A stretch of 36,408 nucleotides of DNA from Desulfobulbaceae bacterium (GTDB taxonomy: Bacteria > Desulfobacterota > Desulfobulbia > Desulfobulbales > SURF-16): positions 1 through 36,408 of the forward strand of contig PKTX01000067.1 in the NCBI GenBank assembly GCA_002868945.1. The letters are read 5' to 3'. A program made the position numbers and the translations under genes. The notes under the pieces were generated by a model that did no database searches, was not told where the DNA came from, and worked only from the letters and a program-made list of their open reading frames with translations. Position 1 is the first letter of the stretch; each line of letters opens with the position of its first letter. Below, one piece after another: positions 8,653-34,820 of the stretch.

Positions 8653-10107
8653 TCACAGCTTCTTGGCAATGGCAATATAAAAGGTGACGCCCTCGTCGGC
8701 GGCGGAGCTGCTCCATACCTTACCGCCGTGCAGTTCGGCGATCTCCTTGACAATGGCAAGCCCCAGGCCGGAACCGGAAACATGCTGGCTGTGCGCCTCC
8801 CGGCTGAAAAGCTCAAAGACCTTCTGGCAGGCATCAGCGGAGAGGGCGGCTCCATCATCATGGACGGAGAGGATATGAAAGGAGGCATCCTCCTCATAGC
8901 CTATTTTGATATTGGCCAGATCCTCGCCACCATACTTCAAGGCATTATCGACAAAATTCCTGAATACCCGTAACAGGGCCAGCCTGTCGGCCGTCACCAG
9001 CGGCAGCTGGTCCGGTTCATGCCAGCTGACGGCCCGCTTTGACAAAGCCTGGCTGTGCTCCTGCCGCACCTGGGCCAAGATATCTTTCAGATCAAGCTCC
9101 TCCACATCAATGGGATGCTCGGTGGTGGATATATAGACATTGATCTGTTCGACAAGCTTGGTTATCTGCTCTGCCGAGCGGGTAATCTCCCGGCAATACC
9201 GTCTGCCCTTTTCATCGATCAGATCACCATACCTTTTTTCCAGGAGCTTGGTCAGACCATGGATGGAGACCACCGGGCTCTTCAGATCATGGGAGACGGA
9301 ATAGGCAAAGAGCTTGATCTTTTCAAAACTCTCGGCCAGACTTTCCTCAAAGAGGAGCCGTTCCGCAATACGCCTTTTGCCGCGATCAAAGAAAAGGGCA
9401 ATAACCAGGAGACCGAGAAGCCAGAAGAGGAGGTGGCTGATATAGATGACCCGCATGGCCTTGGCCTCCAGCTTCTTGTAGGGCTCCAAGGAAAGGGAGA
9501 CGCCCACGGCTCCGCGTACATCTCCCACCTTATAACCCTGATCGGCATGGCATTTCAGACATGACTCGGTGGCGATCATCGGCCGCATCAAACGCAGCCA
9601 GGAACGGCCCTCCCTCTCCTCCACCTCAAAGGCCTCCGGCATGCCTTTTTCAAACTTGACAAGGGCCCGGCGTTCCCACTCATCAGGGGCATTGCACTCA
9701 TTGGTGAGGTTGAGGCTGGTTATATGGCCCTTGACATCATACAACTTCTCATACTGATCCATGATCTGGCGCATCATGTAGGCCGGATTAAGCAGGGTCA
9801 AACGGGTCCCCTGCTCTGTAACGATATCGCGTTCCGGGATATGGCTGAGGGCGGGATTGGGCTGGGTTTCTTCGCTGACAGGTGCATAGACGCCGCCATG
9901 ACCGGTGGCCCACAAACGAAAGGCCTTATCCTTGTTGAAGATGGTGGTCGCCTCCTTGTGGGCCAGGTCCATGGTGCGGCCCTTTTCCATGCCGACATAG
10001 ACTAAGCCGGACAAGAGGCAGAGAAGTGTCCAGGACACGGCCACCAGCACTGCTGTCCGTCTCAAGGAGCGCAGATCGCTATGATGCTTGTTCCAAATCA
10101 TTACCAT
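8653..10107 (-). CDS. Sensor histidine kinase with a c-type-heme-like DUF3365 domain
   Basis: A 484-residue membrane kinase. A TM segment near residues 20-40 is followed by a periplasmic domain of DUF3365 (Tll0287-like) type that carries Cys183-Leu-Lys-Cys-His187, a CxxCH heme-attachment motif. A second TM follows (LLFWLLGLLVIALFF). The cytoplasmic part has HisKA with phosphoacceptor His273 (SHDLKSPV) and an HATPase (NFVDNALKYG, SGSGLGLAIV). The start is taken as the ATG at 10107 with AAGGGG upstream, because residues further upstream look non-coding. No response regulator gene is adjacent, so it is an orphan kinase. Heme binding suggests redox or gas sensing (inferred). Confidence 0.88.
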   Translation of the reverse strand: MVMIWNKHHSDLRSLRRTAVLVAVSWTLLCLLSGLVYVGMEKGRTMDLAHKEATTIFNKDKAFRLWATGHGGVYAPVSEETQPNPALSHIPERDIVTEQGTRLTLLNPAYMMRQIMDQYEKLYDVKGHITSLNLTNECNAPDEWERRALVKFEKGMPEAFEVEEREGRSWLRLMRPMIATESCLKCHADQGYKVGDVRGAVGVSLSLEPYKKLEAKAMRVIYISHLLFWLLGLLVIALFFDRGKRRIAERLLFEESLAESFEKIKLFAYSVSHDLKSPVVSIHGLTKLLEKRYGDLIDEKGRRYCREITRSAEQITKLVEQINVYISTTEHPIDVEELDLKDILAQVRQEHSQALSKRAVSWHEPDQLPLVTADRLALLRVFRNFVDNALKYGGEDLANIKIGYEEDASFHILSVHDDGAALSADACQKVFELFSREAHSQHVSGSGLGLAIVKEIAELHGGKVWSSSAADEGVTFYIAIAKKL

Positions 10108-10514
10108 CAGGCACAACCCCTTAAACAGCCGGCTGAAAGGACCATTGCACAGAGGGGGGTATGCCGGACTCGGCAATACTCCTGCACCCGAGCAACAAGC
10201 AGGCGGCCAGGCGATAGACAAGGCTGCTTTCGCCACATTTTTCGTGCCGTGAGCGACACTGGCCAACGTCTTGAGCGGCGTTAAATCTGCACCTGGCCAG
10301 TGTCTGCCCAGAAAAAGCCCACAATTATTAATTATATCATAGTGATGATAAATGGACCAAGAGAAATGCTATAAAATCAAGGCCTTGAAAAAAAGGGGAA
10401 CAGACTTCCTGTTCCGGGTCCAGGCCTCGACACAATGGCAAGCGGTCCGGCGCCAGACAGGAAAAGGAGACCACACCCTGCGGGGGGTCAGGTCAAGCAC
10501 GAGGGCGCGGAGGG
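10108..10514. other. Intergenic region, kinase promoter side
   Basis: No convincing gene. It holds the upstream region of the histidine kinase and an AT-rich block (10321-10350) that could contain its promoter. A 57-codon plus-strand frame (10352-10525) has no ribosome-binding site and overlaps the end of the selenoprotein gene on the other strand; it is not annotated as a gene. Confidence 0.4.
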
Positions 10515-10733
10515 TTAGCCCTTGATCAAGTTGACGATCTCGCCCTCGTCCGGAAAACGCTTCAGGGCCTTTTTGGAAAAGATGTTCCGGCCGTCCACAT
10601 CCACCTCAAAGACACCGCCAGAGCCGGCGACAAGCTCGACATCGGCGCCAAGGGCGGACTGCAGTTCGGCTCCCAAACTGGAAGCACGGGGTTGGTAGTT
10701 TCACTTTGAACAGTAGGTGATGACAACACGCAT
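10515..10733 (-). CDS. SelW/Rdx-family selenoprotein (in-frame UGA = Sec)
   Basis: Reading the minus strand from ATG 10733 gives MRVVITYCSK, then TGA (10701-10703), then NYQPRASSLGAELQSALG and on to LKRFPDEGEIVNLIKG with a TAA stop at 10515. The 72-residue product, with UGA read as selenocysteine, has the CxxU redox motif (Cys8, Sec11) at the end of the first beta strand and the GVFEV.VDG...F.KK....FP.EGEIV pattern of SelW/SelT/SelH (Rdx) thioredoxin-fold proteins. A perfect AAGGAGGT lies seven bases before the ATG. A SECIS-like hairpin follows the UGA. Rdx proteins are thought to act as thiol-redox partners; the substrate is unknown. Conventional ORF calling splits or drops it at the UGA. 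Confidence 0.88.
10667..10688 (-). promoter_or_regulatory. Candidate bacterial SECIS element
   Basis: In the mRNA, 15 bases after the UGA, GCUUCC pairs with GGGAGC (one G-U pair) around the loop AGUUU. Below it, two further C-G/G-C pairs form if one U is bulged. A G in the first two loop positions, a loop about 21 bases from the UGA and a bulged U are the features expected for SelB-dependent Sec insertion. It lies inside the coding sequence, as is normal in bacteria. Confidence 0.6.
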
Positions 10734-11015
10734 GGGATATACCTCCTTAATTTCTTAACGGAATGTAACAGGGTGACAAAGCATTTCGTTGCTTGCTGGC
10801 CTGTTTGTGAATATGCTATTATTTTAACAAATTACTGGCAAGCCTCAAGATCTCGCCAGACCAATGAGTGCCTGTCCGGGAATGGCCCTCTCGGAGTCTC
10901 GCATATATGCCTGCGCTTATTTTTCTCGCAGTCCTTGATCTCGAACGAAATGACCTATTTCTGGACAGACACTAACTATTCTCTTGAACGACAAACACTT
11001 TTTTTGGAAACAGAC

Positions 11016-11381
11016 ATGGCAGAAGAACAGGACACACAGACAACAGGCAGGAGATTTTTCCGCATCCCCCTGGAAGATCCGCAGGAGGCCTCTGTCGTCA
11101 TAAAGGGCCATCACTATAACGTCATCAATGTCACCTCCCAGGGCGTTGGTATCTACCTTGAAGATGCCGACGCCTTTGAGGTGGACAGCGAAATCACGGA
11201 TATCAATCTCACCATCAACGGCAGGTCATGCAATGTCAAAGGTCGGATTGCCCATGTGACCCCCACCAGCATCCATTATCTTTGCGGACTTGAGATCATT
11301 GATATGGACCAGGACGCATCTGAAATTCTGAAAGGCTTCATTGATCAGCACAAGGCCAGCCTTTTCTCCTTTATGAGCTGA
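11016..11381 (+). CDS. PilZ-domain protein
   Basis: A 121-residue protein that is essentially a single PilZ domain. Arg12-x3-Arg16 (RRFFR) and Asn-Val-Thr-Ser-Gln-Gly (NxTxxG) are the two c-di-GMP-binding motifs. It would be a cytoplasmic c-di-GMP receptor. The start is set at the ATG at 11016 because the domain begins just after it; an earlier in-frame ATG at 10950 would add a tail without recognisable structure. The Shine-Dalgarno is weak in both cases. It lies 13 bases upstream of the next gene and is probably co-transcribed with the RHH-like and ParA genes. Confidence 0.8.
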   Translation: MAEEQDTQTTGRRFFRIPLEDPQEASVVIKGHHYNVINVTSQGVGIYLEDADAFEVDSEITDINLTINGRSCNVKGRIAHVTPTSIHYLCGLEIIDMDQDASEILKGFIDQHKASLFSFMS

Positions 11382-11394
11382 ACAGGACACCCCT

Positions 11395-11820
11395 ATGACG
11401 GTTGGGCCCACCAAGACAAGCATTATGAACGAGATCATGACCGGCAGCGCCCATGGCGGTGATCCCATTCCGGTGCTCGACGAGTTGACCCAGCTCATCC
11501 GGCTTTACTCACCCCAGGATCCCGTTGCCCCTGTTCCGCGCAACACAAGCCACGCATCCCCCTTACTCAACAAGCTCCTGCCGCCGGAATACAACAGAAA
11601 AAAAAGCAGCTTTCAACTCTCCTGCAGCGTTGTGGAGGATCTGGAGAAGGCCACCAGGGCCATTCGCCAACAGCTGCCGGACGGCGCCAAGATGCAGATC
11701 AGCAAATCACGAATCGTCGAATATGCCCTGGAGCTTCTCCTGGAGGATTTTAACGAATATGGCGCTGACTCCATTCTGGCCCGCAAGATCCTCAAAGAGT
11801 TCAAAGTCGACAAAACCTAA
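11395..11820 (+). CDS. Small putative ribbon-helix-helix protein upstream of parA
   Basis: A 141-residue protein without a family I can name with certainty. The N-terminal half (about residues 1-65) looks disordered and Pro/Ser-rich. The C-terminal half has a strand (SSFQLSCSVVEDLEKATRAI) followed by helices (ISKSRIVEYALELLLEDF), which resembles ribbon-helix-helix DNA-binding domains such as those of ParA partner proteins. It lies 26 bases upstream of the ParA-like gene, so it may be the DNA-binding partner. An internal ATG at 11425 is an alternative start. The DNA-binding role is inferred from pattern and position. Confidence 0.6.
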   Translation: MTVGPTKTSIMNEIMTGSAHGGDPIPVLDELTQLIRLYSPQDPVAPVPRNTSHASPLLNKLLPPEYNRKKSSFQLSCSVVEDLEKATRAIRQQLPDGAKMQISKSRIVEYALELLLEDFNEYGADSILARKILKEFKVDKT

Positions 11821-11846
11821 AGTTCCCAGCGCCGGGAGAGACCGAC

Positions 11847-12752
11847 ATGATCATCACCTGTCCGCATTGCTCAAAAGAACACTCCATTGACGAGACCAGA
11901 ATTCCGCCCAACGTCAAGCGGGTACGGTGCAAGTTCTGCAAGCAGCTTTTCTTGTTTGGTGAGGGGCAGGAAGAAAAGGCCCGGGAAAATCAGATCCGGA
12001 AGCTGGCTGTGTCGCTGAGCAAGGGCGGCGTGGGCAAAACCACCACGGCCGTCAATCTGGCCGCCGGTCTTGCCCTGGCAGGCTACAAGGTGCTGCTCAT
12101 TGACACCGACACCCAGGGTCAATCCTCCTTTATGCTGGGCGTACGGCCGTCGGCAGGCCTCACGGAACTGGTCACCGAGGAACTGGCGCCGGAGGAATGC
12201 CTCTTTCAGGCCCGCCAGAACCTCTGGCTGCTGGCCGGCGGTAAATCCCTGGCCGGGGTCAAACGGGTTATCGATCGCAAGGATTTTGGCGGCGAAATGA
12301 CCCTTGCGGAAAAGATTTCCCCCATTGACAATCAGTTCGACTTTGTCATTGTCGACACCTCTCCGGGCTGGGACCCGCTCATCGTCAATGTCCTTTTCTA
12401 TGTAACGGAAATCCTCATCCCGGTGTCGCTGGAGGTCATGACCCTGCAGGGCCTTGTCGAGTTCCTGAAGTCAATCTCCTCTATCCAGAAATATCAGCCC
12501 GCCCTTGGTTTAAAGTATATCCTGCCCACCTTTCTCGACAAGCGGGTGAAAAACACCACCGGCATCCTGCTCAAACTGGAAGAACTCTACGGTGAACATG
12601 TCTGCAAGCCCATTCGCTACAATGTGCGGCTCACAGAGGCGCCGGCCCATGGCCAGACCATCTATGAGTTCGCGCCGGGCAGCAACGGCGCCAGTGATTA
12701 TCGCGATCTGGTACGCAAGGTCAGCGGCAACAGTAAACTGTTCACCGAATAG
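11847..12752 (+). CDS. Zinc-ribbon/ParA (MinD-family) ATPase fusion
   Basis: A 301-residue protein. Residues 1-36 form a zinc ribbon of the MJ0042 type, with Cys5-x2-Cys8 and Cys28-x2-Cys31. Residues from about 50 are a ParA/Soj ATPase with the deviant Walker A KGGVGKTT (Lys59 as signature lysine), DTDTQGQSS as the A' region and [10 protein letters not shown] as Walker B. ParA ATPases position DNA or protein cargo by dimerising on the nucleoid. Here no parB or parS is seen, and the upstream neighbours are a PilZ protein and a small DNA-binding-like protein. The cargo could be a chromosomal or polar structure rather than a plasmid. The zinc-ribbon fusion is unusual. Confidence 0.85.
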
Positions 12753-29048: not shown

Positions 29049-29567
29049 TTATTCCGACCGAATATCATTAAGAAACTCTCTAATGGCGCGTGGCGACCTC
29101 AAGTGATGAACTTTCTTTGATTTCATAGAGTTGGTGACAAGTTGTCGGTATGCGGGGGTCAACCTTCTATGGCACAGCCAAAGAACCCGGTAACTATTAA
29201 GTGTTCCCTTTAATATTGGACTGTTATCAGGCCAGCCTTCGGGATCTACAAATAAACCTTTTAGGAACCGTTTTGTCACCCACGTACCATGTGTTAATAA
29301 CGGGAGGTCAATGAAAATTAGCGTATCTGCAGCAGAGAAACGCTCCCATGCTGATGCGACACAACCAAATCCATCAATAATCCATTCCTCTTGGCTTAAG
29401 AGACCAGAATGGATGTTGAGATATTCGGTATGAGGGACTTCTCCGCCTCCTGCCTTGTATTTTATTTTGTCCAGCGAATATAGGGGAAGGCTAGTTGCTT
29501 CGGCCAACTGCTTAGCCAGCGTAGATTTTCCTCCTCCCGCATTACCAAATATTGCTACTTTTTTCAT
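29049..29567 (-). CDS. Small P-loop kinase (FlaR/adenylate-kinase-like)
   Basis: A 172-residue P-loop NTPase with Walker A GNAGGGKST (residues 8-16), an LID-like middle region (GFGCVASAWERFSAADTLIF) and a basic C-terminus. It resembles small nucleotide-kinase-like proteins annotated as AAA or DNA-topology-modulation (FlaR-like) proteins. The start at 29567 has AGGAGG five bases upstream; an upstream start would include a palindrome. Its base composition is more AT-rich than the core genes. It is a single-gene unit bounded by a terminator upstream. The substrate is unknown. Confidence 0.75.
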   Translation of the reverse strand: MKKVAIFGNAGGGKSTLAKQLAEATSLPLYSLDKIKYKAGGGEVPHTEYLNIHSGLLSQEEWIIDGFGCVASAWERFSAADTLIFIDLPLLTHGTWVTKRFLKGLFVDPEGWPDNSPILKGTLNSYRVLWLCHRRLTPAYRQLVTNSMKSKKVHHLRSPRAIREFLNDIRSE

Positions 29568-29579
29568 GTTGCCTCCTAT

Positions 29580-29595
29580 GGCTTTAGCTAAAGCC
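29580..29595. repeat. 16-bp perfect palindrome upstream of the kinase
   Basis: GGCTTTAGCTAAAGCC is a perfect palindrome 13 bases upstream of the kinase start codon. It is placed where a repressor dimer or an mRNA hairpin would affect translation. No known operator matches. Confidence 0.6.
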
Positions 29596-29605
29596 CAAGA
29601 AGCTG

Positions 29606-29635
29606 ACAACAAAAACCCGCCTCTTGGGCGGGTTT
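29606..29635 (-). terminator. Rho-independent terminator, minus strand
   Basis: On the minus strand AAACCCGCC, a five-base loop and GGCGGGTTT form a nine-pair stem followed by TTGTTG. It would stop minus-strand transcripts entering from the transposase side, before the kinase gene. The symmetric A/T flanks could give weak activity on the plus strand as well. Confidence 0.65.
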
Positions 29636-29797
29636 AAAAAACTACTGACGCGTCAAAACCCACCATTCCTATGGAATGATGGAAATAATTCGAAAAGATT
29701 GATGTGCAGAGTCTGTATTCATAACTTAAATAATCCCAGACAAGTTTCAAGCTGTCAACTCTCGACCTGCCTAACGTACGTAACGGGCTTACGAGAC

Positions 29798-30726
29798 GGG
29801 GTCAGGTCTTGAAAAATCAGTTTTTACCCTTGAGGCATACAATCTTGCTGATCGTAGTGTAATGCAGTCCTATAACATCGGCTATATCCTTCAGGGTATA
29901 GCCATATTTCAGGTGGGCATCGCAAATCCGTTGATTCCGAACCTCCTTGTCACCCTTGCCCACATCGCTGAAATACTGAGCCAACTCCGGTCGGTCCGGA
30001 TAGCGCTGCGACCTGGGAATCTCGCCGATCTCCTGCCTCTCGCCAAGAAGGTCCCTCATTTGGGTGACAAATTCGCCACTTCCCAAAAAAATCTGGCCGG
30101 AGAGTCTTTTCCACGGACTCTCCTCTTTGCCACTGATGCCGGCGAGCACAAACTCTCTGTACAGCCTCCTGGCCCGAGTTCTCTTGGTCGAGAACTGTGC
30201 CAATACCCAGTCAGTGGTCAAAAAGTCGGGAACCGCTTTTCCGAAAGCCGTGGCCTGGTAACTACTCCATGGCCAAGAGGAAGGGCTCCCCACCATGCGG
30301 GCACGTACGGGATTGAGAACGACATACCGACACAGTTCCAACAAGTGGGTATTCTTCTCGACCACAATGGCCTTGTAGCGCCCCTGAAAAACATGGCCAA
30401 CTCGTTGATGGGCACGGTTAAAAGCTTGGGTATAGACGCCGTTGAGGTGCCGCATACCAAGAGAGAGGTTGGGGTCGGGAGTTTCGACAACCAGGTGGTA
30501 GTGGTTGTCCATCAGGCAGTAGGCGTGACAGAGCCAATTGTACTTGGCCACGGTCATCGCGAGGATGCCGAGAAAGCAATAGCGGTCCTGCTCTGTGACA
30601 AAGATCGCCTGCTGCGCATTGCCGCGCGACGTGATGTGATACAGTGCGCCGGGATATTCAACTCGGAGTGGACGGGCCATACAGAAACGATAGCACCAAA
30701 AAACTAATTTTTCAAGACCTGACCCC
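29798..30726 (-). mobile_element. RAYT element with 28-bp inverted ends
   Basis: The transposase gene is enclosed by GGGGTCAGGTCTTGAAAAAT... at 29798-29825 and its inverted copy at 30699-30726. The two 28-base ends differ at one position. A third copy, a perfect match to the inverted left end, lies at 30883-30910. The left end covers the stop codon of the transposase. Such flanking repeats are typical of REP-associated tyrosine transposases (RAYTs). Confidence 0.75.
29817..30680 (-). CDS. REP-associated Y1 transposase (RAYT, IS200-like)
   Basis: A 287-residue single-strand HUH transposase. MARPLRVEYPGALYHITSRG is the signature N-terminus; the HUH motif is His60-Tyr-His62 (MDNHYHLVV), and the probable catalytic tyrosine is Tyr119 (RYVVLNPVRA). 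The C-terminus carries a helix-turn-helix (YTLKDIADVIGLHYTTISKI) that standard IS200 TnpA lacks. RAYTs process REP hairpins and are often domesticated single copies. The stop lies in the left inverted repeat. Both ends are complete, so the gene appears intact. Confidence 0.9.
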   Translation of the reverse strand: MARPLRVEYPGALYHITSRGNAQQAIFVTEQDRYCFLGILAMTVAKYNWLCHAYCLMDNHYHLVVETPDPNLSLGMRHLNGVYTQAFNRAHQRVGHVFQGRYKAIVVEKNTHLLELCRYVVLNPVRARMVGSPSSWPWSSYQATAFGKAVPDFLTTDWVLAQFSTKRTRARRLYREFVLAGISGKEESPWKRLSGQIFLGSGEFVTQMRDLLGERQEIGEIPRSQRYPDRPELAQYFSDVGKGDKEVRNQRICDAHLKYGYTLKDIADVIGLHYTTISKIVCLKGKN

Positions 30727-30728
30727 GG

Positions 30729-30864
30729 GCAGACCGGTCATCGCGAAGATGCCAGAAGAGAAAAGGCGGTCCTGGTCGGTGACAAAGATCCCCTGCTGCA
30801 CATTGCCACGCAACGTGATGTGATACAAAACGCCGGGATATTCAACTCGGAGTGGACGGGCCAT
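30729..30864 (-). pseudogene. Truncated second copy of the RAYT 5' end
   Basis: The frame from ATG 30864 reads MARPLRVEYPGVLYHIT, then LRGNVQQGIFVTDQDRL, clearly homologous to the first 40-odd codons of the intact transposase, then diverges. Together with its copy of the 28-base end it forms a tandem repeat of 184 bases (30544-30727 versus 30728-30911). The substitutions between copies show that the duplication is not recent. Confidence 0.8.
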
Positions 30865-30932
30865 ACAGGAACGATAGTACCAAAAAACTGATTTTTCAAG
30901 ACCTGACCCCGGGAAGAATGCTACCCCTCATA

Positions 30933-33900
30933 CTAATAAAGCCCAAAGCCATGCTCTTCATCTCGCTTTGATTCTTCAATTATTTGCCGGTTTATATATG
31001 CAATATGATCTTTAACCCAGCGCCTTACATTAGAATTTTCATGTTCAATCAAGGGGCTTAGTGCTGATTTATCTGATTCTAGGTAGGGTACTAGAGACCC
31101 TGACCAACCACGGGTTCCCATATTAGCGCTCAGTTCACTCGCTACCCGTTGGTCATTTCCAAAGTTCTCAAGCAAGGCGATAAACAAAGCCGAAGGCTGT
31201 TGCATCTCATCAACTGTTTCGATGACATTTAAACAACGGGCAACAAAAATTGGGCCAATATCTGGTTGCTTTAAGCACCATTCCATAACGCTTTCAACTG
31301 GAATAACAGAAAGTACACTTGGCACATTTCCTACCAAACTTGTTTCCCTATCTAAGAGCTGCTGTAACCAATACTTATCCATCCCTTCAGCTCGAACGAT
31401 AGCCTCACCAAATATCGGCCAGATTACGTCACCATAGTCGCTCATTAGGTTTAACATTAAAGGTTTGGTATAAGACCAGATATCACCATGATTTAAGCCG
31501 AATTTACTCGCTGCAATTAACTGATTAGTTAGCGCAACCGCAAACTCTTCATCTCGCTCTTTTAATAGCTTTTCAGCCATGTCATGCCAATGGTGTGTAT
31601 CTGTTGCAGTGTTCTCTTGCCCTTTATGTAAAGGTACGGCTGTGACTAAATACTTAAGCTGATCTCTTAGCACATTGACGCTGTCTTTATTGCTAAAACA
31701 ATACATATAAATCACATTGAGTGCGGCCCAGCTGGCCTGATCGCCCAGCTCAGCTAACTGTAGGCAAAAACCGGCGATCACATCCGGTTCAATGCTGTCA
31801 GTCACACTGCCATAACTCAATGCATTCGCGCTATTTGGCGATAACACACCTCGCTGAATGAGCTCCAGTAGAACATCTAAATGTGTCTTTTTGATATCAC
31901 CCGTTCGTATAAAATCTGGATAAAGATGAACCAACTTCTCATCCGTAACTAACCGACCGATATTCTCTTGCCAAAGCTCTGGCGACTGCTCAAACAAACC
32001 TCGATATAAACCTAAAACTAACCGAGAGTCAGGCTTTTCAATGGCTGCTAAGCGCTCTAGAGCCAAACCAAGTATTGGCACAACATCAGTTAAGTCATGA
32101 GCCAGTTGGTGTCCAAAAGCGTATGACTGCTTTTGCTCTCCCTGTAACAATAAGCCAAGGTGAGGGAGTAGTTCTTCAATATTATGGGAGAGCTCTGTCG
32201 CAAGTACTTTCGCATTCTCTGCTGCCACATCAACGTAGTGACCATCCTCACCTTTATGATGTTCCCAGGGAGGATTGGTTACCAGAATCTTTAACTTCTC
32301 AGGCAGTTCTGCTTCATCGGGGCTTAGCAGCTCTAACCAGTTATTCAGCACATCAGTCACTTCTTGCTTGATATCTACTGAATCATACTCAAAAGTTTTT
32401 TTGATGCTGTCTAGAGCTTCTGGCCAATAGCGGCCATTGATACTTACGACCTTCCTAATCGCCGAATCCAACATTTCAATCCGGCCACGAGCAACAAAGC
32501 CCCGAATTGAATGACCTATATCTGACAGGACTTTTTCTTTTTGTGCATCGCCCCGCTCAAAAAGAACCAGCATCAAATCAAAAGCTTGTTGCCAGAAATC
32601 AAAAATATCTTGCCATAGCTCTGGTCGCCACTCTTCAAGCGGTGCTTTAGTCCCCTGATACTCAGCCCCAACAGTTCGTGTGCCTCCATAAGTACTGATT
32701 GCTTGACCTAAAGCCTCAAGAACGACCATATCTATATCGGTCTGATTAACTGCAATAGCCCGCTTTAAGATATCAAAGCGAATATTAGGCTTCGCTTGCG
32801 TTCCAGATAGATTCACTCGAAATAACTGAGCAAACATGCCGGTTGCATTGTTGCTCCAACTTTCATTTTCAGCTGATGCCAGCAACAACATACACCATGC
32901 TGATTTTTCAAATACATCCTTATGAAAACACAGCTTTTCCAATGCCCATACTAGGTTTCTTCGCGTGTCACCATCTATAGCCTGAAGTTGATCATGACTA
33001 TACTCAGACAAAACTCTGTATAAAGCATTGCTCGTTGACTCGGGGTTCACCTCAACAAATGCGCGGAAGAGTTTCGAACCCCTTTCTGTAAGCAGCCCCT
33101 CCGCTTGGACAAAAGGGCTTTGCCCTCCAAATAGTTGATCTGAAAATCTTTGAACATTCGGCTGGTCATCAAGATATGAAGCCTGAGTACAAAAACTCTG
33201 CATTAAGGAATCGGGGAGGGTATCAATTAGCTGCTTTTGACGATCATATGACGCTTCCTTCCACCATTCTGACGCCAGTGTCAGTGCCAGCGGCTTAGGT
33301 ACCAGTCTTGCGTACCGCCCCCCGCGATTTATGACTTGCCGACGGGTAAATATTTTTAATACTCTGTCAAATATTTTTAGGTCAGACCCAGCAACATCTT
33401 CCGCAATATATTTAGCCTCTTCGCCGGCTGTACCAAAGACATCGAACAAGGAACAAGCAGATAACATTTCCTTCTCAACATCTGTTATACCACCGTCACC
33501 ATCGATCAATTTTCTTACGACAGAGCTACTTTCTATCGAACCAAGCAATCGGCCCTCTTTCTGATACTGCTCTGCGATTAGAGTAGCCATAAGAGGATAA
33601 CCCTGAGCAAACCGAGCTACACGATCAACATCACTCGAATCCATTCCAACTAATATTGGGGACAGGACCTGCTTTATGGCCTCATCTGACAATGGGGAAA
33701 GTTGAATATGAATAGATTCATCAACCTGTTCATCTGAATAGCCAACTGTAACAAGTTTTAGTAAGCAATCTGTTTTATTGGCCTCCTTCGCCAAATGGTT
33801 GTGCAAATCAATATTACAATTTTCAATTACTACCAAGCCATGAACACGATCTTCAACCATTGCCCGAATACTTTCTTTAATTGTGGTGTCGTAACCAGGT

Positions 33901-34820
33901 GCATCAAAAATAAGAACGCAGGAATCATCGATAGAACTAGATGCATCAATAGCTTCTAATAATAAGCGTGTTTTACCTAATCCAGATGCGCCTGTTAGCC
34001 TTATCACAGCTCGTTCTAAATCAATAGCAGCAACAAACGACTCAAAATCATTTGTTCGCGTTTCATCAGTCGCATAATGATAACTATGATTTCTTTCTAC
34101 ACTTTTCCAGTCTTCAAGGTCTCGTGAGGCAGTATTTTTATACCTGTTTACGGTATTTTCTTCCAAAATAAATTTTTTAAAAACAATATATGATGATGAT
34201 TCCATACTTTCTGGTTTAACAATTGTGCAGTGATCAACATCGTTAATTGTTTCAACCTGATGATGCCTGAAAATACTCTTTGAACTAGAAGAAGATACAA
34301 TATCGTCATTTGCAGCGACAATACTCATAATTTCCAGAGCATTGTCCAACTCACTATCTACCCACTGATCATTTAAATCATCGAGTTCGCTGGAATCACG
34401 ACACAAACTTTTAAGATGCCGATTTCTAAATGAAATATACTTGCCAACATTTGCGAACCCTGACCCATCATGTGGAACGGCAAAAAAGCATACTTTTCTG
34501 ATTTTATGGTTTATTTTTTTATCCTTCATGCGAAGGAGAAGTTTTTTAACCACTAAGCCACCCAAACTATGGCCAGCAAGAATAATTTCATCGTTATCCA
34601 AGTCACACCGAGCTTTTATATCGGTGAGTAGGCCATTTGCTATATTAAGAATACTGGGGGCACGCTGATAAAATTGTTTAAGTATATGGGGCGACTGATA
34701 GCCATATGAAACAATGCTGTAATCAAGGTCATTGTCCTTTTCCAAGAAATCTGGAAAATCCCCCCATGTTCCGTCGGAGGTACCGCCTAATCCGTGGACG
34801 AGTATTATTTTTTTTCCCAT
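30933..34820 (-). CDS. Alpha/beta-hydrolase-STAND NTPase fusion (putative defence)
   Basis: A 1295-residue protein. Residues 1-215 form an alpha/beta-hydrolase (lipase/esterase, DUF676/PGAP1-like): HGLGGTSDGTW for the oxyanion region, nucleophile Ser85 in GHSLGG, a probable acid at Asp172/173 and His197 (VDHCTIVKP). Residues about 255-560 are a STAND-type P-loop NTPase with Walker A GASGLGKT (277-284), a Walker-B-like strand LVVIEN (329-334) and a winged-helix-like segment. The rest, about 700 residues, looks like helical repeats that could sense a ligand. Effector-NTPase-sensor order is that of NLR-like immune proteins (for example Avs), and hydrolase-type effectors occur in fungal NLRs. The role is inferred. 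The gene is AT-richer than its neighbours, with a weak ribosome-binding site. Confidence 0.85.
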   Translation of the reverse strand: MGKKIILVHGLGGTSDGTWGDFPDFLEKDNDLDYSIVSYGYQSPHILKQFYQRAPSILNIANGLLTDIKARCDLDNDEIILAGHSLGGLVVKKLLLRMKDKKINHKIRKVCFFAVPHDGSGFANVGKYISFRNRHLKSLCRDSSELDDLNDQWVDSELDNALEIMSIVAANDDIVSSSSSKSIFRHHQVETINDVDHCTIVKPESMESSSYIVFKKFILEENTVNRYKNTASRDLEDWKSVERNHSYHYATDETRTNDFESFVAAIDLERAVIRLTGASGLGKTRLLLEAIDASSSIDDSCVLIFDAPGYDTTIKESIRAMVEDRVHGLVVIENCNIDLHNHLAKEANKTDCLLKLVTVGYSDEQVDESIHIQLSPLSDEAIKQVLSPILVGMDSSDVDRVARFAQGYPLMATLIAEQYQKEGRLLGSIESSSVVRKLIDGDGGITDVEKEMLSACSLFDVFGTAGEEAKYIAEDVAGSDLKIFDRVLKIFTRRQVINRGGRYARLVPKPLALTLASEWWKEASYDRQKQLIDTLPDSLMQSFCTQASYLDDQPNVQRFSDQLFGGQSPFVQAEGLLTERGSKLFRAFVEVNPESTSNALYRVLSEYSHDQLQAIDGDTRRNLVWALEKLCFHKDVFEKSAWCMLLLASAENESWSNNATGMFAQLFRVNLSGTQAKPNIRFDILKRAIAVNQTDIDMVVLEALGQAISTYGGTRTVGAEYQGTKAPLEEWRPELWQDIFDFWQQAFDLMLVLFERGDAQKEKVLSDIGHSIRGFVARGRIEMLDSAIRKVVSINGRYWPEALDSIKKTFEYDSVDIKQEVTDVLNNWLELLSPDEAELPEKLKILVTNPPWEHHKGEDGHYVDVAAENAKVLATELSHNIEELLPHLGLLLQGEQKQSYAFGHQLAHDLTDVVPILGLALERLAAIEKPDSRLVLGLYRGLFEQSPELWQENIGRLVTDEKLVHLYPDFIRTGDIKKTHLDVLLELIQRGVLSPNSANALSYGSVTDSIEPDVIAGFCLQLAELGDQASWAALNVIYMYCFSNKDSVNVLRDQLKYLVTAVPLHKGQENTATDTHHWHDMAEKLLKERDEEFAVALTNQLIAASKFGLNHGDIWSYTKPLMLNLMSDYGDVIWPIFGEAIVRAEGMDKYWLQQLLDRETSLVGNVPSVLSVIPVESVMEWCLKQPDIGPIFVARCLNVIETVDEMQQPSALFIALLENFGNDQRVASELSANMGTRGWSGSLVPYLESDKSALSPLIEHENSNVRRWVKDHIAYINRQIIEESKRDEEHGFGLY

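Follow-up and report, generated by a model that had tools for sequence, protein, structure and literature searches.

The window, a stretch of 36,408 nucleotides from a Desulfobulbaceae bacterium, almost certainly contains, to judge from its sequence, a functional gene for a selW-like selenoprotein of the Rdx family. The gene lies on the reverse strand and is interrupted at codon 11 by an in-frame UGA, which would be decoded as selenocysteine. The evidence consists of the match of the translated frame to the Rdx family on both sides of the UGA, the conservation of this codon in related genomes, an RNA hairpin that has been conserved in its synonymous codons, and a full set of genes for selenocysteine (Sec) synthesis and insertion in the genome. 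The positions of the gene, its signals and its neighbours are given in Table 1.

Table 1. Positions in the window of the selW-like gene, its signals and the adjoining genes
Feature	Position	Strand	Basis and remarks
selW-like gene (Rdx family selenoprotein)	10515..10733	-	translation with TGA as U; TAA stop included
In-frame UGA, selW codon 11, predicted to be read as selenocysteine	10701..10703	-	sequence and alignment
bSECIS hairpin	10667..10688	-	RNA fold, consensus fold, pair counts, frozen synonymous codons
bSECIS core stem	10684-10679 paired with 10675-10670	-	RNA fold
bSECIS apical loop GUU	10678-10676	-	invariant G at 10678
Shine-Dalgarno AAGGAGG	10742..10748	-	8 nt upstream of the selW ATG; sequence
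Candidate sigma-70 promoter TTGAGG-16-TAAAAT	10821..10848	-	9/12, extended -10 TG; consensus scan only
Candidate intrinsic terminator GGAACAG-GAAGT-CTGTTCC, then T run	10391..10415	-	pattern scan only
Histidine kinase gene	8653-10266	-	one flank of the gap left by Sec-blind calling
PilZ-domain gene	10773..11381	+	mechanical ORF, homologous part from about residue 80; divergent to selW; Pfam PilZ, tblastn
Small protein without Pfam match	11395-11820	+	follows the PilZ gene

The selW-like gene and its product

Translation with TGA as selenocysteine gives a complete product of 72 residues, which begins MRVVITYCSKU, ends IVNLIKG and carries the sequence CSKU at residues 8-11. An earlier note on this DNA had proposed that reading through the TGA restores a complete Rdx protein of this length, and the translation, together with an Rdx match that spans the UGA, confirms it. 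The CxxU motif and the Shine-Dalgarno sequence described there are both present, the latter at the spacing listed in Table 1, and all claims of the note proved correct as to place and content. They included the loss of the protein in standard gene calling: no open reading frame of at least 60 residues is listed over selW under the standard code, so that a caller blind to selenocysteine leaves a gap that extends from the histidine kinase gene to the PilZ gene. The CxxU motif on its own is weak evidence, as TGA codons in a CxxU or UxxC/S/T context with some open frame around them turn up many times at random in the window.

For profile searches the selenocysteine was replaced by cysteine. The Pfam Rdx profile (PF10262) matches residues 2-71, that is, either side of the UGA, with 73.4 bits (cut-off 22.6) and an E-value of 1.8e-20. 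The NCBIfam model NF041051, for SelT/SelW/SelH family (seleno)proteins, gives 98.9 bits against a cut-off of 88, and TIGR02174 gives 58.5 bits against 34.2. The frame is therefore not a chance one, given the Rdx match across both sides of the UGA and the occurrence of the same UGA-interrupted frame in 46 of 58 related genomes.

The top sequence matches in the PDB are SelW-related proteins. An AlphaFold2 model, calculated with 12 aligned relatives, has a mean pLDDT of 93. In this model a strand (residues 2-8) is followed by a helix (residues 14-28), with Cys8 and Sec11 in between, and residues 8 and 11 are thus predicted to occupy the redox position of thioredoxin-like folds. Foldseek ranks only Rdx structures at the top (2fa8, 2obk and 2oka, with TM of about 0.9), and mouse SelW (2npb) comes after them with a TM of 0.70. 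The scores above the curated cut-offs and the thioredoxin-like fold with a CxxC/U pair both place the protein in the Rdx or SelT-SelW-SelH family.

Conservation of the UGA codon

The order-level sample comprised 58 genomes, that of the window among them, drawn from its genus, its family and its order. A full-length selW copy with exactly one internal stop, TGA, was found in the 46 genomes mentioned above; two further partial matches span only residues beyond the motif. In the alignment of SelW genes TGA occurs at codon 11 in 57 of 57, of which 50 come from the order, all with CxxU and the UGA at the same codon, and seven from other phyla. Copies from Gemmatimonadetes and actinobacterial metagenome-assembled genomes likewise have the UGA. 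Plasmid records gave only distant selW relatives, with less than 60% identity.

In the wider phylum the family was matched in 38 of 247 genomes, and an internal TGA is present in 35 of the 38 copies listed. The other three copies, which are more distant, have no internal TGA and carry cysteine at the Sec column (CTQC, CGVC), showing that Sec and Cys exchange at this position. Aligning the homologues for U or C at this column, as had been recommended, thus yields UGA, or Cys in a few distant copies, and the in-frame UGA of the window falls at the Sec/Cys column of the family. Within the order sampled, no Cys form of SelW was seen.

Cys forms do occur in the phylum, and TGA is a single substitution away from the cysteine codons TGC and TGT, so the gene might be imagined as a Cys-type Rdx gene broken by such a mutation. 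This pseudogene would have to share its TGA with every one of the 46 full-length copies from the order, as well as with copies in other phyla, while the protein beyond the TGA has been conserved as protein, the synonymous sites of the hairpin are frozen and the Sec machinery of the genome is complete (see below). Conservation already refutes it, and we give this reading next to no credence and have rejected it in favour of the selenoprotein gene.

The bSECIS hairpin

Published criteria for a bacterial SECIS element (bSECIS) are a loop of 3-9 nt, a stem of 4-16 bp, a G in the first two loop positions, a distance of 16-37 nt from the UGA and a minimum free energy of at most -7.5 kcal/mol (PMC13188914). 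When scored in this way, as the earlier note had advised, the hairpin of the window falls within all of these limits, with a 3-nt loop GUU, a stem of 6-7 bp and an energy of -11.2 kcal/mol. The loop lies 22 nt from the UGA and has G as its first base, which bears out the hairpin with a G in the loop that had been seen at the expected distance.

The folding energy is unexceptional when compared with dinucleotide shuffles (z -0.19). Shuffling of synonymous codons in 57 genes likewise revealed no significant excess of stability (the window gene has z -0.22, and 50 relatives average -0.41). Since the shuffled sequences fold as well, energy was dropped as an argument, and the significance of the hairpin rests on codon conservation and covariation.

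Synonymous codon choice is frozen precisely where the hairpin lies. All 49 of the 49 sequences encode Ser18 as TCC (codon identity 1.00, 0.20 expected). At codon 19 the residue varies between Ser, Arg and Gly, but only AGT, AGG and GGT are used, all of them codons that preserve the loop G and a purine in the closing pair. For Leu20, 47 of 49 sequences use CTG or TTG; the other two have CTT and are the genes whose stem is shifted by one base. The remaining selW codons are mostly near expectation, and the next most biased, one Ser and one Arg codon, reach a log2 ratio of only 1.1.

The stem itself is paired in 96.4% of cells. Shuffles reach 90.5%, and sliding the partner strand by 1-3 positions leaves no more than 59.4%; both sides of the stem have changed in 21 cells. 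RNAalifold recovers the same stem unaided. The third positions of codons 17 and 21, on which the protein places little constraint, covary (U-A 33, C-G 11, C-A 4, U-G 2), and for these stem columns (21-33) the Fisher test gives p 2e-6, uncorrected for relatedness. The loop G is invariant. The core stem is broken in some genes, four of which re-form it one base over, and the five Gemmatimonadetes genes have one A-C mismatch in the stem. The frozen codons together with the covariation of the stem show that the bSECIS is selected as RNA; SelB would be the protein that binds it.

A bulged U at position 10686 would recall the fdhF element of E. coli, but it was rejected as a conserved feature because the position varies freely among T, G, A and C.

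Selenocysteine machinery and probable decoding

The genome assembly (3.7 Mb in 83 contigs, 99.99% complete) was searched by family for the genes of Sec synthesis and insertion, a search that had been proposed when the gene was first noticed. The complete set was found: selA (621 bits, contig C52), selB (366 bits, above the cut-off, contig C57), selD (365 bits, contig C76) and tRNA-Sec (74 bits, contig C36), the last called with anticodon TCA by Infernal and ARAGORN alike. A lack of selenocysteine machinery, which would speak against the gene, thus does not apply here. The selD gene (C76:5878-6801) has an in-frame TGA of its own close to the start, in the context KASG-TGA-AAK, and SelD of this genome is probably a selenoprotein itself.

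A point against this reading is that among the relatives selW occurs without a full-length selB in a few draft, fragmented assemblies (G039, G044 and G048), although all three have selA. Loss of selW showed no link with loss of selB in the sample; several genomes without selW keep both selB and selA, so its absence does not track loss of the machinery here.

An open frame does not by itself reveal the residue inserted at the UGA, and this codon could be imagined to be read as another amino acid, for instance as Trp in a reassigned code or by a near-cognate suppressor. Support for this was not found. The presence of tRNA-Sec with anticodon TCA and of SelA, SelB and SelD speaks against it, as do the column itself, which is Sec or Cys and never Trp in the copies read, and the hairpin at the place expected for a bSECIS. 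Moreover, translation table 11 gives long open frames for the remaining genes of the window. Code reassignment is extremely improbable and was rejected on account of the machinery, the Sec/Cys column and the bSECIS.

Decoding of the UGA as selenocysteine would, by analogy with known systems, proceed as follows. Ribosomes would begin translation at the ATG that follows the strong Shine-Dalgarno sequence, and selenocysteine would be made by SelA and SelD. SelB carrying Sec-tRNA-Sec would bind the hairpin downstream of the UGA, and because of this binding UGA-11 would be decoded as selenocysteine. The product is expected to be a compact, thioredoxin-like Rdx protein, with the CxxU pair in the loop that connects the first strand to the first helix, where thiol/selenol redox centres usually lie. 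Most likely SelW acts as a small cytoplasmic selenol-disulfide oxidoreductase.

The UGA comes so early in the gene that failed decoding leaves only a decapeptide, which raises the possibility of a selenium-dependent switch, in which the protein does contain Sec and termination at low selenium is meaningful. Sec genes in general share this dependence on decoding, nothing regulatory was found that would distinguish selW from others of the kind, and the protein sequence is conserved throughout. We consider such a switch very improbable.

Neighbourhood of the gene

The PilZ gene, the small protein and an ATPase gene form a group (10773-12752, forward strand) divergent to selW. The third gene encodes a ParA-like ATPase with an N-terminal CxxC segment resembling a zinc ribbon. 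Searches with tblastn locate a PilZ gene near selW in some 15 relatives from several genera, divergently wherever the orientation was checked, and in many of these the genes for the small protein and the ParA-like ATPase also adjoin. The recurrence of the PilZ neighbour indicates that selW is a real gene at a stable place. SelW appears to be Sec-only in the order and stands beside this cluster in several relatives, and it might have a specific redox role tied to surface or cell-position functions that the neighbours govern, and not be a general antioxidant, a proposal that we regard as quite unlikely.

Relation to known SelW proteins

The Sargasso Sea data set of 2005 had SelW-like selenoproteins as its most abundant family (PMC1088965). 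A list of 2006 includes them for Desulfotalea psychrophila and Geobacter, among others, and comments that organisms using Sec rarely have the Cys form (PMC1794560); a 2022 review enters SelW as Rdx, with CxxU. Read-through of the UGA in Campylobacter jejuni selW has been observed by Ribo-seq, with proteomic support for the full-length product (PMC11955535). The protein of the window passes the equivalog cut-off of NF041051 (SelTWH_Campy), a model named for Campylobacter; C. jejuni SelW (CJnc60, PMC11955535) belongs to a different phylum and has 80-81 residues, in contrast to 72 here.

The Cys-type Rdx proteins of Proteobacteria and Actinobacteria (2fa8, 2obk, 2oka, 3dex) have the same fold, with a TM of about 0.9, and the same position of the active pair, but the pair is CxxC instead of CxxU. 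Mouse SelW has the Rdx fold and the CxxU family in common with the window protein, although the sequence match is weak (E 0.26). In eukaryotes the SECIS element is situated in the 3' UTR. The SelW-like selenoproteins of D. psychrophila and other bacteria agree with the present one in family, in CxxU and in a UGA with a downstream bSECIS; compared with the Desulfotalea protein, the window copy differs only in sequence and genomic neighbourhood. Desulfotalea belongs to the order Desulfobulbales, as do the relatives of the window.

The window SelW is thus an ordinary new addition to the long-known bacterial SelW-like (Rdx) family. Its identification corrects the annotation, in that a conserved selenoprotein gene is recognised where ordinary callers can miss it.

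Other features of the window

An Rfam match to the Pseudomonas sRNA P9, unexpected in this lineage, is found at 29612-29692 on the reverse strand, with 54.6 bits against a gathering score of 43, and lies immediately upstream of a small P-loop open reading frame (29049-29612). A gene for an IS200-like (Y1) transposase is situated in the same region (29817-30680). The peptide QRSPAAHC(R/H)AT*CDT(V/K)RRDIQLGVDGPYRNDSTKKL is encoded twice on the forward strand, at 30632 and 30816, 184 bases apart (window positions about 30600-30930), and the DNA upstream of the transposase gene therefore looks tandemly duplicated.

The mobile-element sequence adjoins a gene for a protein of 1295 residues (30933-34820, reverse strand). 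According to Pfam, this protein has an N-terminal alpha/beta-hydrolase domain of the PGAP1/serine esterase-like kind. Behind this domain come a probable P-loop segment (GASGLGKTRLLLEA) and then a long C-terminal part, and in its layout the protein resembles NTPase-type defence proteins.
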